Assembly: GCA_938091115.1 (NCBI GenBank)
Contig: CALKNI010000092.1
Location: 1-64,000 of the forward strand
Origin: an uncultured Pirellulaceae bacterium
GTDB taxonomy: Bacteria > Planctomycetota > Planctomycetia > Pirellulales > Pirellulaceae
DNA: 64,000 nt
Direction: 5' to 3'
Part shown: piece by piece, positions 15,139-26,192 of the stretch
Layout: each line of letters begins with the position of its first letter
Position numbering within the stretch: position 1 is the stretch's first letter
Position numbers and translations under genes: made by a program
The notes under the pieces: model-generated
Told to the model about the DNA's origin: nothing
Databases searched by the model: none
Seen by the model: the letters and a program-made list of their open reading frames with translations, nothing else

Positions 15139-15600
15139 CTATTGGTTATCACCGGGGTGTAGGCTCAATTGTGAGAGCAGCTGTAAAACCCCATTTAGGT
15201 GAGCGAGACGTGGTCCGTAACGATCTACAAATTCGTTCAAAACGAATTCGCTGTCCATCATTTCTTCATGGTTATCGTTGACATCAATTGTCAGTGTTTG
15301 CAAGAACTCTGTTTGAACTTGCGAAAGTGCCTCAGCGGCCGCGCGGCAGCGTCGAGCCAGCAGGGGATTCGCGTCTTTCCAGTGAGATAGCTCATTCGAG
15401 CGTTGACGTTGACTGGCGTGCATTTGGTCGATCATTTCTTCCATCAGTTCATTCTGGCGGTCCTGCCCGGCTACAAGTTGCTGAAGAATAGCTGCGATTT
15501 CATTTTGACCTGCTCCCGAATGAGGGGCGGCAGAATCGCTAGCACTTTGGGCAACGTCAATCCGGAAAACTGGGGAAATATCTTGTGAATCGTGAGGCAT
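15139..15600 (-). CDS. Hypothetical helical protein
   Basis: 153 aa ORF with predicted long helices; followed by a terminator on the same strand. Confidence 0.6.
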   Translation of the reverse strand: MPHDSQDISPVFRIDVAQSASDSAAPHSGAGQNEIAAILQQLVAGQDRQNELMEEMIDQMHASQRQRSNELSHWKDANPLLARRCRAAAEALSQVQTEFLQTLTIDVNDNHEEMMDSEFVLNEFVDRYGPRLAHLNGVLQLLSQLSLHPGDNQ

Positions 15601-18558: not shown

Positions 18559-19719
18559 ATGTCAAATACTTCAACTAAATCAAAACCGAAACCTAATTGG
18601 TACCCGCCCTGGGCACCAAGGTTTTGGAATGGAATGCGGCTGGGCGACTACCTGCGGTTGATGAAAGAAAACCGATTTAAGATCCATCCGTTAAGATATC
18701 CAATGTTTGCCCTGGGGGGTGGGTGTGCGTTGATGAATTCGATCCTAGCTCAGGTTCAGGATGTCACTCACGGGAGTGTAATCGAGTCGGTTCAGCTAAA
18801 AAAGCCGCCAGTTTTTATTATCGGTCACTGGCGATCAGGTACGACATTGATGCATGAGTTAATGTCAATGGATTCGCGTTTAGCATTCCCAACCAATTTT
18901 GATGCATTTATTCCCAATCATTTTCTTGCATCTCGATTCTTTTTTTATCCGTTTTTAAAATTGCTGATGCCCCGTCAACGCCCCATGGACAACATGTCGA
19001 TGGGTGTTGGATCCCCTCAAGAAGATGATTTCGCGTTGTGTGCTTATGGTGCGCCAACTCCTTACCGCAGAATTGCGTTTCCCAACCAACCGAGTCGAGA
19101 GCATCTGAATCTCAAATTATCCGATGCTGATCACGAGGTGCAGGAAAAATTGCACGGGGCAATGAATTATTTTCTAAAGGCGCTGACCGTTAGGTATGAA
19201 TCCCAATTGGTTCTGAAGTCGCCGCCTCATACTGGGCGTTTAGAGCAGTTGGTCGAGTGGTTTCCAGGGGCGAAGTTTGTGCATATGGCACGGCATCCGC
19301 ACAAGTTAGTGCCTTCCACGATGAGGCTTTGGAAACTGTTGGATTCGCTTCAGGGTTTTCAGATTCCAAGATACGATGATACTTGGCTCAAAAACTATAT
19401 TTTCGAATGCAAGGATTTAATGTATTCGGCGTACTTTAATCAACGTGATTCAATTCCCAAAAATCAATTGGTTGAAGTGAATTTTGAAAATCTCACAATC
19501 CAGCCGATTGCCGAGATGGAACGAGTTTATGGTCAGCTTGAGATGGATGGATTTTCAGAGTTAGAACCAGCGTTGGTGGAGTATTTTGAACGTAAAAAGA
19601 ACCATCAGAAAAATCCATTTACGATTGAGCCTTCGCTTGAGCTTGAAATTGATAACAATTGGCATCGCTATATGGATGTGTTTGGATATTCAAGTCCGTC
19701 TGGTCAGAGTGCGGGTTGA
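18559..19719 (+). CDS. Sulfotransferase family protein
   Basis: PPVFIIGHWRSGTTLMHELMSMD (PAPS-binding loop), FVHMARHPHKLVPSTMRLW. Confidence 0.88.
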   Translation: MSNTSTKSKPKPNWYPPWAPRFWNGMRLGDYLRLMKENRFKIHPLRYPMFALGGGCALMNSILAQVQDVTHGSVIESVQLKKPPVFIIGHWRSGTTLMHELMSMDSRLAFPTNFDAFIPNHFLASRFFFYPFLKLLMPRQRPMDNMSMGVGSPQEDDFALCAYGAPTPYRRIAFPNQPSREHLNLKLSDADHEVQEKLHGAMNYFLKALTVRYESQLVLKSPPHTGRLEQLVEWFPGAKFVHMARHPHKLVPSTMRLWKLLDSLQGFQIPRYDDTWLKNYIFECKDLMYSAYFNQRDSIPKNQLVEVNFENLTIQPIAEMERVYGQLEMDGFSELEPALVEYFERKKNHQKNPFTIEPSLELEIDNNWHRYMDVFGYSSPSGQSAG

Positions 19720-19761: not shown

Positions 19762-20514
19762 TCATCTTAATCGGCTCAATTCCTGCCTCCGCCGATGAAT
19801 CTGAGGATCGCCGTTTTGCATTCTTATTTCGTCCCGCAATTGCTGGTCCGTCATTTTTAACCGATTTTCATGGCTGACAAATTTCATAAAGAAGTCAAAG
19901 GTTGATGCAAACAAAAGCGTTATTGCGACGTGCAACGAGACACCAATTACGAGGCCTAACATTTTGGAGGCCATTAAATCGATTGGCAGATTTGCTAATT
20001 GAAAAAAACTATCTTGTTGAATCCAAACGCTCGTTCCGCCCGCGATTCCCGCGAGAATTGTTTTAGGAACCCCAGTGATAATTGTGAAAAAGCCACTGAT
20101 TGAAAAAATATTTTTCCATGTGCCGGAAGCTAATCGTGTCGGATCAAGGGAGACTCGTTTGGGTAATAAGAGTGGTCCAGATTGAATCCAGTGGGAAATT
20201 ACTCCAGCGACAACTAAAAGGCACAACAGAGGTGCGAGTTGCGTAACAACTCCCAGGATTGCGTGTTGGATTTGTTCAGTAAAATCTTGACTTGACATGC
20301 TGAGGTTACCCGGAGCCATTGTCCAAGTGTCAGCAGTCCAGTTGCGAATCCAGTGGCCTACATTACCGAGCATGTAATAAGTGATCGCAATCGCGCCCAG
20401 CATCTGTAGGGCGGCTGCCAGTTCGTGGCTCTTGACGACATCGCCATCCTGTCTTGCCTGTTGCCGTCGGCTAGGAGTTGCTTGGTGGATTCGGTCTTGG
20501 ACTGACTCACTCAT
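19762..20514 (-). CDS. flhB: Flagellar export protein FlhB, lacking the C-terminal autocleavage domain
   Basis: ATPSRRQQARQDGDVVKSHEL N-terminus, four hydrophobic segments, KMTDQQLRDEIRMQNGDPQIHRRRQELSRLR then stop; no NPTH. Confidence 0.88.
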   Translation of the reverse strand: MSESVQDRIHQATPSRRQQARQDGDVVKSHELAAALQMLGAIAITYYMLGNVGHWIRNWTADTWTMAPGNLSMSSQDFTEQIQHAILGVVTQLAPLLCLLVVAGVISHWIQSGPLLLPKRVSLDPTRLASGTWKNIFSISGFFTIITGVPKTILAGIAGGTSVWIQQDSFFQLANLPIDLMASKMLGLVIGVSLHVAITLLFASTFDFFMKFVSHENRLKMTDQQLRDEIRMQNGDPQIHRRRQELSRLR

Positions 20515-21283
20515 TTTTGGCGACCTCTTTGATCGAAGATTGCATAGAATCTGTGATCATCGAAACGAAGTGTTCTAGATCGTCGACAAATAGCCAAACG
20601 CTTCCTCCTAACGTCAAAAACACGGCAAGAAACATCACGATGAGATTGGAACTGAGCCCCATGCCTAAGAGGTTCATCTGCGGGTAAGTTCGGCTGACGA
20701 ATCCTATTGCTATGGTCGCGATGAGCATTGCAGCAACTGCAGGTGCAACGCCGCGAAGTGTTAGTATGAAGCTTTGTTGTAAAAGCGTGATTAAAATTTC
20801 GCTTACCTGATTGGTCGCTAATTCGGTCCCAAGTGGTAGGTAAATAAATGTATCGAGAAGAGCTGAGACGACTAATTCCGGACCGCCAGCTAAGGCAAAT
20901 GCAGCCAATGAGAGCACGGCAAACATTTGGCTGATGGTAGAAGAGTTTTCGCCGGTTTGGGGATCTAGAGTATTTGAAATTTGAATGCCAGCCATTTGAC
21001 CAATAACGGTTCCAGCAAATTGAGCAGCTGAAAACATTATCATGACTCCCAATCCTAATAGAGAGCCAATAACAACTTCACAGAAGATTGCAGAAAAGAG
21101 ACTCTCAAGATTGGTTGGTTCAAATTTGGGTGGAATGATCAACGGAAATGCAGTCAGACTTAAAAGCACTGCAATTCCAAGGCGAATTTTTAGTGGCACA
21201 ACTCGACTGCCGAATATCGGAGCTGTCATCACTAATGATACAACCCGGGAGAACGCAAGGAAAAAGATCAATGCCGAATCCAT
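20507..21283 (-). CDS. fliR: Flagellar biosynthetic protein FliR
   Basis: FSRVVSLVMTAPIFGSRVVPLKIRLGIAVLLSL; FliR TM pattern; 8-nt overlap with flhB. Confidence 0.93.
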   Translation of the reverse strand: MDSALIFFLAFSRVVSLVMTAPIFGSRVVPLKIRLGIAVLLSLTAFPLIIPPKFEPTNLESLFSAIFCEVVIGSLLGLGVMIMFSAAQFAGTVIGQMAGIQISNTLDPQTGENSSTISQMFAVLSLAAFALAGGPELVVSALLDTFIYLPLGTELATNQVSEILITLLQQSFILTLRGVAPAVAAMLIATIAIGFVSRTYPQMNLLGMGLSSNLIVMFLAVFLTLGGSVWLFVDDLEHFVSMITDSMQSSIKEVAKNE

Positions 21284-21285
21284 CG

Positions 21286-21852
21286 TTACCCGCCTTTTTC
21301 AGTCCGGGGTATTTTGGATACGCGATAATGAGGTAGTGAGAATGGGTTGTTGGAGACGCCGGAGGGGGCGAGCGAGTCGCCTTTGGGGTGTGTCGGCAGC
21401 GATTGCTCAAGCTTTTGAAATTCTCCGATTAGCGAGAAGATAGAATTGTCTGGATTTGGATGAGTGGTATCTTGATTGGTGGCGTTTTCGTTTTTTGTCG
21501 CAATGGTATCAGAGGTGTGCTCGGTTGGGTTGCGTTCCGCCTCTAATGCTGAATTATTGGCGAATAGAGTGGGTGGTGGCGAATTGGACCATTGAGTCAT
21601 TGGCTTTTCAAATGAAAGCCGAGCAAAATCAGTCATGCGTTCGGTAAGCCAGGGCAGGCAGATCCCAATCACGGCAACCAGTATCAGGATTTTGGGAACG
21701 AACGACACAGTTTGATCCTGAACCTGAGTCATGGTCTGAATGATGCCAATGATTAAGCCAACGAGCAGGCTTGTTACGAGGATTGGACCTCCAACTAACA
21801 TGCATGTTTTCATGGCTTCGCGACTGAAGTCGATTGCATCTTCGGGGTTCAT
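21286..21852 (-). CDS. fliQ: Flagellar biosynthetic protein FliQ with long C-terminal extension
   Basis: DFSREAMKTCMLVGGPILVTSLLVGLIIGIIQTMTQVQDQTVSFVPKILILVAVIGICLPWL; about 100 aa polar tail follows. Confidence 0.92.
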   Translation of the reverse strand: MNPEDAIDFSREAMKTCMLVGGPILVTSLLVGLIIGIIQTMTQVQDQTVSFVPKILILVAVIGICLPWLTERMTDFARLSFEKPMTQWSNSPPPTLFANNSALEAERNPTEHTSDTIATKNENATNQDTTHPNPDNSIFSLIGEFQKLEQSLPTHPKGDSLAPSGVSNNPFSLPHYRVSKIPRTEKGG

Positions 21853-21922: not shown

Positions 21923-22981
21923 TCAGGTGATTGGGATGAAGCTCTGAAGTAACATTCCCACAACCAGATTCCAACCGTCAACTAAAACGAACAGGATCAA
22001 TTTCAGAGGAAAGCTAACCATGGTGGGAGGCAGCATTAGCATCCCGGTGGAGACAGTGACGGAAGATACAACCAGGTCGAGAACTAAGAATGGAAGGAAG
22101 ATTTGGAATCCAAGTAAGAATGCAACCTTGAGTTCGCTAACCATAAAGGCAGGTAGCAGTACATTGATTGGGACATCTTGCGCACTGGTGGGTGCTGCCT
22201 CCGAGTATTCCGGTACGTATTTATAAAAGACCGCAATCGATTCCGCGTTTCCAGCGGCTTCAATTTGATTGGCCATGAAGGTTTTTACCGGTGCGATGCC
22301 GCGAATCCACGCTTCTTCCCAACTGATGCCATTTTCTGTTTGTGTATATGGATCGATTGCTTCCTGTTTTACTTCGGTCCACACAGGGGTCATGATCAAC
22401 AACGTTACGAACAGTGAAAGAGCTGTCAAAACTTGAGTTGGTGGTAATTGTTGTGCGCCAAATGCCTGTTTAAGCAGTGTCAAAACCACAATTACTCTTA
22501 CATAGCAGGTTGTCATTAAGACAATCGCAGGAGCTAGACTTAAAGTTGCAAGAATTAGGGCAACCTTAATCGATGAAGTTAAACCTGCAGGAGATGTGAG
22601 TTGGTCAGTCGGTGAAGATAGAAAAGAAGTGAGCGAAGGTTGGTCGGAAGCAGCAGCGGTTTCAGGTGAAGGAGTCTGTGGAAGTGTATTGGAAGAGGAG
22701 TTGTTGGCTGCTAATCCAAGTTGATTCCTCACCTCGCTAGGCAGCTGATCTGTAGCTGTTAGCGCCTGCGATTCTTGAACATTTAGTAATTCTGCGCCGG
22801 TCATCTCTGCGTCAACACCGGTGGAATCGAATTCAGTATGCGGAAACGATTCTGTGATTGACAATTGCCCTGAAACGGATTGGGTGTTAATAAAAAAACC
22901 AATGCTTAACACGGTTATTGCGCAACACCGCAGAAAGGCAGTTTCAGGAATCGTTTTGGAATGATGATTGTGCAATGTCAA
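21923..22981 (-). CDS. fliP: Flagellar biosynthetic protein FliP with N-terminal extension
   Basis: LAPAIVLMTTCYVRVIVVLTLLKQAFGAQQLPPTQVLTALSLFVTLLIMTPVW, FLLGFQIFLPFLVLDLVVSSVTVSTGMLMLPPTMVSFPLKLILFVLVDGW. Confidence 0.96.
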   Translation of the reverse strand: MTLHNHHSKTIPETAFLRCCAITVLSIGFFINTQSVSGQLSITESFPHTEFDSTGVDAEMTGAELLNVQESQALTATDQLPSEVRNQLGLAANNSSSNTLPQTPSPETAAASDQPSLTSFLSSPTDQLTSPAGLTSSIKVALILATLSLAPAIVLMTTCYVRVIVVLTLLKQAFGAQQLPPTQVLTALSLFVTLLIMTPVWTEVKQEAIDPYTQTENGISWEEAWIRGIAPVKTFMANQIEAAGNAESIAVFYKYVPEYSEAAPTSAQDVPINVLLPAFMVSELKVAFLLGFQIFLPFLVLDLVVSSVTVSTGMLMLPPTMVSFPLKLILFVLVDGWNLVVGMLLQSFIPIT

Positions 22982-23002: not shown

Positions 23003-23851
23003 TTAGGCTTCGAATACCGAGTTGTTTGAATTGCCAGATAGGTCGAGCGTTCGGAGGATATTCGCAAGGTTGTTTTGTTGCTGTGCCTGAGATTGGGCTG
23101 AAGGAGACGGTACCGCAGGCCCGGCGGCAGCAGCAGGTCTCATTTTCGGTTGAAAAGGATGTCGGCGGCCACTGCATAACGCGACTAGGTACTCAACTTC
23201 ATTTGGGTCTGTGATTTCCCCGATTGCCTGAGAGCCCTCTGCGCTATTGATTATTAGTAAGAGTTTGCTGCCCAAGCGAATCAGTTGTAGCTGCCGCTTC
23301 GGACCGAAGGGAATTTGTCCCATCAGCTCAAGGACTTCTCGTGGTAGGTTTTGATTACTGGACGGACTTAGTTTTCGCATGATCCAAACGAATCCGAAGT
23401 AAAGACCAAGAACCAGGGCAAGGCTGCCGAGCATCCTTCCGACGTCAGAAGAGGCGGTCAGTGTTTTGAATTTTCCGATCCAGGATTCAACATCTGTGAA
23501 TGCGGTGCCAAAACTTGATAGTTTCGTAACGGTCGAATCTTGCTCATTCTTGACGGGCGCTAGTGAGAAACCAGGGTCGGGGTTTGGAGGGAGTGCAGGA
23601 TCTGCAATGTGATTTGCTTTGTTATTCCCATCCCACTCTTCGGGGTCAAACTCCGGAAATTCTATTTTAATAGTACCCGCTTCAATTGGAATTTTCGCGG
23701 CCCCATTTTGGAAATTGGTTTGCGCGAAACTGCAACTTTCGGGCACGATCCAGGGGGACAATAAAATCAGGAGGCAGGCAAGTGAACTGCAAGATTTATC
23801 GGATCTGCCGAGAGACAAAGTTGTTTTGTTGAATTTGAAAATTTGTCTCAT
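23003..23851 (-). CDS. fliO: FliO-like flagellar biosynthesis protein
   Basis: Signal/N-terminal helix, TM GSLALVLGLYFGFVWIMRKL then REVLELMGQIPFGPKRQLQLIRLGSKLLLI; sits directly upstream of fliP. Confidence 0.82.
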   Translation of the reverse strand: MRQIFKFNKTTLSLGRSDKSCSSLACLLILLSPWIVPESCSFAQTNFQNGAAKIPIEAGTIKIEFPEFDPEEWDGNNKANHIADPALPPNPDPGFSLAPVKNEQDSTVTKLSSFGTAFTDVESWIGKFKTLTASSDVGRMLGSLALVLGLYFGFVWIMRKLSPSSNQNLPREVLELMGQIPFGPKRQLQLIRLGSKLLLIINSAEGSQAIGEITDPNEVEYLVALCSGRRHPFQPKMRPAAAAGPAVPSPSAQSQAQQQNNLANILRTLDLSGNSNNSVFEA

Positions 23852-23878: not shown

Positions 23879-24124
23879 TTATAGGTCAGTGTGAAATAAT
23901 CTTTGAATTACGCACGTAAAAAAATAAGAGTGATCGCCTGGGCGTCGCTCAATCTCTCCAGAAGATCGCGGGCACGACTTTTCGCGGAATTTGCCGTGGC
24001 TCGCAAGATCAATTGACGCTAGCATTTGCCAGACTCGGAAAAGCTCTTTTTGCTTTGCGGGTGATCCGGTGAGTTGCGAAGTGATGCAACGAAGCGTTTT
24101 GTTTAGGCAGCGTCTCGTATCCAA
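23879..24124 (-). CDS. Small ORF of uncertain function between fliF and fliO
   Basis: 81 aa; ATG overlaps the end of the FliF-like ORF; reading frame may be disrupted (see findings). Confidence 0.35.
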   Translation of the reverse strand: MDTRRCLNKTLRCITSQLTGSPAKQKELFRVWQMLASIDLASHGKFREKSCPRSSGEIERRPGDHSYFFTCVIQRLFHTDL

Positions 24125-25617
24125 GACTCGATGACCCTTGCTGCCGCATCTGGATCTTTTTCAATCAATTGCGTTAGTCGAGTTTCTGAATCGGGTGAAG
24201 ATTCAGAAGCACTCACAGGGATCGCATTGGAGTGCTGGGTGCTTCCTGAGAATTGGGAAGTGTTGGCCAGTGGAAGTGGATCTGAACCTCGCGAAATAGA
24301 TACCAGAAGAATCAAACCTACCAGTAAGACAACGCCCGATGGCCAGTTTTCGGTGGCGATTTTTTTAAGTCTTACATCCAAGGGGACTGTGGAAGTTGTG
24401 GTTGCTGGAATTAAGTTAAAAGCAATCAAGTCATCGCATTTCAGATCGGGTGTAGATGAAAGAGATGATTCGATCTTTTGGGATATTTCGGATTGGAATT
24501 TTTTAAATTGAGAGGCGAATACGTCTTGATTCAAATTACGAGAATTTTGATCTCTCAGAGCAGTTTGAGTTTGCGAGGATTGGGTACGTTCGATTATCAG
24601 TTTCTCAGGAACATCGATGGAGATTGAAACGAGCTTAGTCATTGTCTTTGGTGTTGAGTCCGTTTGAATCTTACCTGTTGGCTTTGGATAGACAGCGGTT
24701 TCAAGTTTTATCACGTCGTTAGCTCCAGCCTGAAGAATTGAAGGTTTGCGAGCATTTAATCCTTGGGGCGGTGCTTCTACTACTTGTTGGTTTAGAGCAG
24801 AATTGGAAATGACCTTATCAATGCTTACGGTTACGGTTGCTTTGATTTCTGGATACATGGTAAGCGCATCATTAATTTGAGTTTCACAATAACGCTGTGC
24901 CTCGGAAATGTCAGTGGCGACTTGGATTGAGTTGTTGGTGTTGGGTGACTGGGATTCGTTATGAATCAGCCCTGTTTTAAGGTCAATCATGACAATGTCT
25001 TTTAAATCGACGCCGGCTGCGACTTGAATGATCGCCTTGATTGTTTTTACACGTTCTTCTGTTAGAGGAAGGTCATCTTTGGTGGCAAGAGAAATGGTGG
25101 CTCGGTTTTGTTGTTTTTGAAAGGTTGAAAATCCGATTGGTTTATCCATTTCAAAGATTGCCTCTAAGATGTATGGCAATCTGAGGATGGTCTTCTCAAT
25201 TTTCTTTTTCTTGGCTTCGAGCGTCATAGCATCGCGAGTGGATTTTGGGAGAAAGATGCTAGGGGCATCCTTACTTTTGTCATTCGATTTTCGGTAGTCT
25301 ACAGGTTCTTCGTTTTGCCTCACAATCGCCTTGATATATTCAAGTCGTTGGTTGGTTGGAACCAGTAGCTTACCTTCGGTGTTTGTTTCGAATTCTTCGA
25401 GACCCTCGCGGATTAGGGCAAATTCAAGGCGATATAATTCGCCTTCGGTCAATTTAGCATTCGGGTAAAGTTCGCATAAGCGTGATTCGCTAGTCTGTTG
25501 TTTGACTTGAAATGCGGCGAGGGTAGCGAGCATGATAATGCTGACAGAGAGTGCCCGGATACGCCGCTGTTTGGCAAATCTGATTACGGTTTCGATTGTG
25601 ATTGGCTTGGTGTCCAT
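24103..25617 (-). CDS. fliF: Divergent FliF-like (MS-ring/YscJ family) protein
   Basis: N- and C-terminal TM helices, YscJ-like region LTEGELYRLEFALIREGLEEFETNTEGKLLVPTNQRLEYI; cluster context; ATG at 25617 preferred over TTG at 25647. Confidence 0.7.
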   Translation of the reverse strand: MDTKPITIETVIRFAKQRRIRALSVSIIMLATLAAFQVKQQTSESRLCELYPNAKLTEGELYRLEFALIREGLEEFETNTEGKLLVPTNQRLEYIKAIVRQNEEPVDYRKSNDKSKDAPSIFLPKSTRDAMTLEAKKKKIEKTILRLPYILEAIFEMDKPIGFSTFQKQQNRATISLATKDDLPLTEERVKTIKAIIQVAAGVDLKDIVMIDLKTGLIHNESQSPNTNNSIQVATDISEAQRYCETQINDALTMYPEIKATVTVSIDKVISNSALNQQVVEAPPQGLNARKPSILQAGANDVIKLETAVYPKPTGKIQTDSTPKTMTKLVSISIDVPEKLIIERTQSSQTQTALRDQNSRNLNQDVFASQFKKFQSEISQKIESSLSSTPDLKCDDLIAFNLIPATTTSTVPLDVRLKKIATENWPSGVVLLVGLILLVSISRGSDPLPLANTSQFSGSTQHSNAIPVSASESSPDSETRLTQLIEKDPDAAARVIESWIRDAA

Positions 25618-25667
25618 CAGATTGTCAGTACGTTGGAGATTGCTCAAGTGCGTCAGGGCTCGTTAGT

Positions 25668-26192
25668 TTAAAATTTCGAAAACCGATTTTCTGGGGTTTG
25701 GTTTTTGTATCGTCGCGGGACGGTGAGGACGTGAGCGGTTCCGCCTTGCGGGCAATTCCATGTGTCGATTTGGGCGCCTTGAGAAATCGCGGTCCGGTGA
25801 GCGTCTCTCAGTTGTTTTGATGCGGGGAATGGGATGATCAAGGGAAGCATTTGATCGGCATGGTGAGCAGTTGTCTCAACGTTACCAAGGGGCATGCCCA
25901 AAGAATCGGCGACCTCAAGTTCCCATTGGTACTTTCCATCGATTAGTGTGACTGAGATTTCACCGCCGTGTGTCATTGGTTCAAGTGCATTTTCTATTAG
26001 AGATGACACGATAGATTTGATCTTCGAGGTGGCAACACATGCCTCTACTAAATCAAAGTCTGTTTCGAGTAAGACGTTTTTGTTTGTCATTTCAGGACGA
26101 TAGCTCTCGAGGACATCCTGAATTAATTGTCCAATGTTTTGAGCGTAGGCTTTGTCACCTTCGGGCATTACTCGGCTGGGATTCAATTCCAT
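25668..26192 (-). CDS. Histidine-kinase-like ATPase (HATPase) domain protein
   Basis: SIVSSLIENALEPMTHGGEISVTL (N box) and ELEVADSLGMPL (G1-like); short stand-alone domain. Confidence 0.6.
   Translation of the reverse strand: MELNPSRVMPEGDKAYAQNIGQLIQDVLESYRPEMTNKNVLLETDFDLVEACVATSKIKSIVSSLIENALEPMTHGGEISVTLIDGKYQWELEVADSLGMPLGNVETTAHHADQMLPLIIPFPASKQLRDAHRTAISQGAQIDTWNCPQGGTAHVLTVPRRYKNQTPENRFSKF

Follow-up and report, generated by a model that had tools for sequence, protein, structure and literature searches.

Introduction

The autocleaving C domain of FlhB is regarded as universal in flagellar and injectisome exporters. In injectisomes, SctU keeps the NPTH domain and SctN keeps the ATPase, and it is known that removal of the FlhB C domain after autocleavage permits late secretion. 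In the flagellar system, the early substrates FlgB, FlgD and FlgE dock on this domain (PMC9307174). Salmonella strains in which FlhB stops at residue 258 or carries a deletion of residues 270-383, and which are also devoid of the rod/hook genes and Flk, secrete FlgM constitutively; FliK is dispensable for FlgM secretion in these strains and the hook protein is not secreted (PMC13344023). Late secretion without the C domain required the removal of flk and raised expression (PMC13344023). Protein export is also possible in the absence of the ATPase (PMC4230889). Non-flagellated Lysobacter enzymogenes keeps the export apparatus including FliI and exports introduced flagellin, and a truncation of FlhB is not mentioned in the parts of that report considered here (PMC7277350).

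The window analysed in this study is a stretch of 64,000 nucleotides from the genome of a marine planctomycete of the genus Mariniblastus. The genome is a draft of 232 contigs and 88% completeness. The window contains an flhB gene that codes for the four-helix part of the export gate but not for the C domain. We consider it probable that this gene encodes an intact FlhB-deltaC of a flagellum-derived, non-flagellar export apparatus.

Results

FlhB ends ahead of the autocleavage domain

The ORF has an ATG start and encodes 250 aa with the C-terminal end ...QNGDPQIHRRRQELSRLR-stop. Residues 6-248 correspond to positions 1-237 of the 335 positions of the Pfam profile PF01312 (E 3.8e-44), in agreement with the initial annotation, according to which FlhB ends before the autocleavage domain. 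TIGR00328 (NCBIfam flhB) scored 130.8 bits, below its equivalog cut-off of 349, and TIGR01404 (SctU) 108 bits versus a cut-off of 358, the NPTH domain being missing. In the numbering of the aligned PDB chain the protein ends at about residue 249. Its stop codon is separated from the end of the convergent sulfotransferase gene by 42 nt, as had been stated before, and because of this short distance there is no sequence for a C domain at the flhB locus. A second PF01312 match was not found in the own genome at E ≤ 10. An AlphaFold model of FlhB-deltaC (pLDDT 82.6) yielded one convincing match in Foldseek, which was also the best one: 6s3l_K, the FlhB of the FliPQR-FlhB complex (probability 1.00, TM 0.72 by target), in line with a membrane part wrapped around the FliPQR gate.

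The other genes of the operon are listed in Table 1. The FliF-like protein itself matched no Pfam family. FliQ has 188 aa in the window, about 100 aa above the usual length, 180 aa in G025 and 93 aa in G005. A conserved 153-aa protein is encoded at 15139-15600 (-) and was found near the operon at eight genus loci; it matched no Pfam family, and a role as cargo is unsupported.

Table 1 Features of the export operon and its surroundings in the window.
Feature	Position	Strand	Characteristics
FlhB-deltaC	19762..20514	(-)	four-helix gate part and linker helix; without NPTH/E motif and C domain
FliR (export gate)	20507..21283	(-)	PF01311 E 1.4e-48; 8-nt overlap with flhB start
FliQ (export gate)	21286..21852	(-)	PF01313 E 1.4e-26, residues 6-77; C-terminal extension of ~100 aa
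FliP (export gate)	21923..22981	(-)	PF00813 E 2.2e-65
FliO	23003..23851	(-)	PF04347 E 4.9e-6
FliF-like ring protein	24103..25647	(-)	cluster and position of PF01514-matching proteins (G005 E 1.5e-8)
HATPase-domain histidine kinase remnant	25668..26192	(-)	operon head; G053 ortholog PF02518 E 2.3e-22; position conserved
Sulfotransferase	18559..19719	(+)	ortholog L067:8341-9489 matches PF13469 E 1.1e-31

A comparison of FlhB lengths among relatives, as suggested in the initial annotation, revealed the short form in 27 of the 28 Mariniblastus genomes (60 related genomes surveyed). The ORFs code for about 250-285 aa, and the proteins stop just past the helix '..MTDQxLRDExRxQxGDPQ..'. The 28th genome (G010) has a 42-aa piece alone at the flhB locus.

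The short FlhB is not accompanied by a flagellum of its own

Flagellin (PF00669), rod/hook proteins (PF00460) and FliI (TIGR01026) are present in exactly the same nine members of the genus, and none of them was detected in the 19 members that have the short system alone, the own genome included. Absence of FliI means absence of a TIGR01026 match at E ≤ 1e-100, a threshold that the divergent FliI of G041 passes with 2.5e-135; the genus-wide statement on missing flagellar parts covers these three profiles. An own flagellum served by the short FlhB was therefore ruled out, and the short-only genomes probably have no need for a change from early to late substrates. The earlier suggestion that substrate switching works differently here thus pointed in the right direction but missed the cause, namely that this FlhB serves no flagellum.

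Eight of the nine flagellated members have a full-length NPTH FlhB in addition to the short one, and the genome of the ninth (G008) consists of 1060 contigs. A second full-length flhB, which the initial annotation had considered, is absent from the own genome; some sister species have one, as part of a separate flagellum. FlhA is encoded twice in the flagellated members, and FliG in most of them. The second-system copies of the genus form one clade in the FlhB and in the FlhA tree (support 100 in both); the flagellar copies form a separate clade that includes one G035 copy, again with a support of 100 in both trees.

Throughout the order (197 genomes), flagellin was found in 1 of 23 short-only genomes versus 106 of 121 genomes with full-length FlhB (Fisher p 4e-15, uncorrected for kinship), and the FlhB of the sole flagellin-bearing short-only genome is a 195-aa fragment. 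Five genomes of other genera (G158, G174, G185, G197 and G035, the last with the loci L203 and L204) have two FlhB genes, one of them short, plus flagellin. Two FlhA genes are present in G035 as well, and the coexistence of both systems is therefore not confined to Mariniblastus.

Components retained by the short system

The components recognised by sequence are FliF, FliO-P-Q-R, FlhB-deltaC, FlhA, FliG, FliA and FlgM. In the own genome, FliA (TIGR02479, E 3.5e-78) and FlgM (TIGR03824, E 6.7e-10, 39.6 bits versus a cut-off of 40.75) are encoded on contig C68. The own assembly contains no FlhA. The gene would be expected past a contig end: C68 stops at the expected flhA start, the point at which G022 has flhA. 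Its absence is therefore probably a matter of the assembly, and a genuine loss was discarded. In seven other genus members examined, FlgM is located near the short-system FlhA, and its N-terminal part is as conserved as its sigma-binding part. No obvious sigma-28 promoter was seen in the aligned upstream regions of FlgM.

FliP, FliR and the membrane part of FlhA are conserved at about the flagellar level, the membrane part of FlhB somewhat less. The docking domain of FlhA in the short system shows 39-49% identity versus 65-76% for the membrane part, whereas both parts of the flagellar FlhA are at 66-71%. The docking domain is relaxed, and docking to FlhA may therefore also have changed.

The fliG gene of the genus adjoins genes for a lipoprotein and for a GspD-type secretin of 1179 aa, and PilM-like genes are frequently found there as well; type II-like genes are present, too. 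In the own genome this locus is on contig C163 (L096:1911-7572), and others are L098, L102, L104, L113 and L114.

Derivation from a flagellar operon

In the flagellated genome G052 the flagellar operon of the order reads histidine kinase ... FliF-FliG-FliH-FliI-FliJ ... FliN-FliO-P-Q-R-FlhB, followed by sulfotransferase, FlhA, FlhF, FlhG and FliA. The system in the window has the same frame, with the kinase remnant, FliF, FliO-P-Q-R, the short FlhB and the sulfotransferase, and the FlhA-FlhF-FlhG-FliA end of the operon persists in other families. Intermediates are G053, G054 and G028, which are devoid of flagellin and rod genes and have FliG-H-I-J-N and a full-length FlhB. The sulfotransferase gene adjoins flhB in several families (window 18559-19719 (+), L132:3245-4534, L072:8299-9471, L115:3542-4669), and this neighbourhood is also present in one flagellated genome. 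Two genomes from other families that have a short FlhB (G056 and G038; L111:7444-9900, L073:4865-6763) encode FliF and FliG as a single fused ORF.

The N-P of the autocleavage site is kept in all flagellated genomes examined, be it as NPTE, NPTH or NPTQ. In flagellated Pirellulales the motif is nearly always NPTE and not NPTH (L002-L061 loci, e.g. L132:2094-3176), with NPTH in G045 and NPTQ in G181 as exceptions; no paper found in the open-access literature searched names NPTE in FlhB. Six of eight full-length FlhBs examined from genomes without flagellin have lost the N-P motif, reading NQAE (G053), DAEG (G054), SPTE (G028), TPGG (G029), SPAG (G102) and QGTA (G103). NPTE is retained without flagellin in G146 and in G048, which still has rod/hook genes. 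G071, a sister of G053 in the same genus, has flagellin and has kept NPTE. That the motif erodes before the domain disappears is the expected pattern when switching has become irrelevant.

It is quite possible that all truncated forms descend from one old non-flagellar FlhB lineage that was spread by descent and transfer. This would concern the history only and would leave the mechanism unchanged. AU tests did not reject a single clade of the truncated-type FlhB (p 0.69) or of the corresponding FlhA (p 0.34 and 0.53). In the unconstrained FlhB tree, however, parsimony counts five changes and some truncated forms sit among flagellar ones, although long branches weaken the trees. The shared synteny including the sulfotransferase also speaks against one old lineage, as does the occurrence of truncated and flagellated full-length members together in families f1, f2, f3 and f17. 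Taxonomy favours several independent truncations, but a single origin is compatible with the AU tests. Low-scoring FlhB matches elsewhere in the phylum (E 1e-37 to 1e-52; G245, G273, G331, G347, G362, G416, G484, G493 and others) may represent further truncated FlhBs.

Discussion

A proposed gate in permanent late mode

The gene content of the short system matches that expected of a late-locked gate: the FlhB C domain and the rod/hook genes are absent, FlgM and sigma-28 are present. We assume that the C domain, which docks early substrates and takes part in switching, was left without a job when rod, hook and filament had gone, and that it was lost because there was no hook or filament left to order, presumably the autocleavage motif first and the whole domain afterwards. 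The remaining gate would run on the proton gradient in the absence of FliI and would need neither FliK nor a hook ruler. Being fixed in the late mode, it would pass late-type cargo on through FlhA, with FlgM as the likeliest candidate besides other sigma-28-controlled proteins, and through the export of FlgM the sigma-28 output could report a working gate. The sequences show the gene content, the selection, the association with missing flagellin and the series of degeneration; secretion, its direction and its cargo are inferred. We tentatively propose that the Pirellulales have a natural, conserved, ATPase-free and rod-less type III gate with a permanently unswitched FlhB-deltaC, which could serve as a dedicated secretion system, possibly with a recruited secretin, and in which sigma-28 would be gated by FlgM export.

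Alternatively, the gate may no longer secrete at all and may have become a membrane scaffold or an ion-conducting complex that perhaps aids a type II or type IV pilus-like machine. Such a role would fit to the relaxed docking domain of FlhA next to a well-kept membrane part and to the giant GspD-type secretin and PilM-like genes beside fliG, and in non-flagellated Lysobacter the retained flagellar export genes have an effect on twitching (PMC7277350). The Lysobacter apparatus, however, still exports flagellin (PMC7277350). The retention of FliA and of FlgM with a conserved N terminus would make little sense without export, and FliP, FliR and the membrane part of FlhA have remained near flagellar conservation. 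We regard a non-secreting gate as rather unlikely.

It is improbable that the system is a remnant still in decay after the loss of a flagellum, even though losses across the order were stepwise (rod/hook/filament, FliHIJ, FlhB C domain) and the conservation of FlhB and FliF is low. The parts with low conservation are not pseudogenes, and the short FlhB is intact in 27 of 28 species. Its pairwise dN/dS within the own subclade has a median of 0.066 (range 0.04-0.11), compared with 0.025 for the flagellar flhB of the same species; a value of about 0.07 means that the gene is under purifying selection. Moreover, flagellated sister species have kept the system alongside a separate, complete-looking flagellum.

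Natural cleavage of FlhB makes a split form conceivable, with the C domain encoded elsewhere and assembling in trans, as the initial annotation had proposed. We consider this very improbable. A C-domain profile built from 18 full-length Pirellulales FlhBs, strongly degenerated ones included, was used to search 34 genomes. No stand-alone C domain was found in the 25 short-only genomes, among them the own genome and one closed genome (best E 0.17), whereas all nine control genomes with a full-length FlhB scored 1e-27 to 1e-48. Within the reach of sequence analysis these results refute the proposal. Virtually no credence can be given to the removal of the C domain by an assembly error or a recent frameshift, for which the draft state of the genome (232 contigs) would speak, because independently assembled sister species have the identical end point and the short FlhBs of named relatives (Mariniblastus and other Pirellulaceae/Planctomycetaceae metagenome genomes) are 83-94% identical across all 250 aa; a simple frameshift had already been judged unlikely. 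The short FlhB looks like a working, stripped-down part of an exporter and not like a broken or split gene.

Comparison with described export systems

With canonical flagellar export the short system shares FliOPQR, FlhA, the membrane part of FlhB, FliF, FliG, FliA and FlgM, and its gene order is that of flagellated Pirellulales. It differs by the lack of the FlhB C domain with the autocleavage site, and flagellin, rod/hook proteins and FliI are undetected in the short-only genomes. The engineered Salmonella FlhB-deltaCCD has a near-identical cut site and likewise no rod/hook in the presence of FlgM and sigma-28 (PMC13344023). The planctomycete form, in contrast, is natural, long conserved and also devoid of FliI. 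Lysobacter enzymogenes resembles the planctomycetes in that an export apparatus is kept without a flagellum and a new role is suspected (PMC7277350); the difference is that Lysobacter has kept FliI. Injectisomes and other non-flagellar type III systems (Abby and Rocha, PMC3459982) also have a flagellum-derived gate without flagellin, and a secretin partner is possible in the present case, too; the planctomycete FlhB, however, lies far below the SctU cut-off and has no NPTH domain. A report on a short-FlhB export system in planctomycetes was not found in the open-access literature searched.

Evolution has here removed a domain that was regarded as universal. Hook, filament and ATPase have gone as well, yet the membrane gate is under strong selection. 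Many species thus seem to be the natural counterpart of the Salmonella construct by which removal of the domain was shown to fix the gate in the late mode. They offer a minimal gate for asking what FliPQR, FlhA and FlhB need to move a protein, and a graded series from the flagellum to something else, in which first the motif is eroded, then the domain is lost and then the ATPase. If our reading is true, the short-FlhB system would be a further case in which evolution has turned the flagellar export machinery into a system dedicated to secretion.
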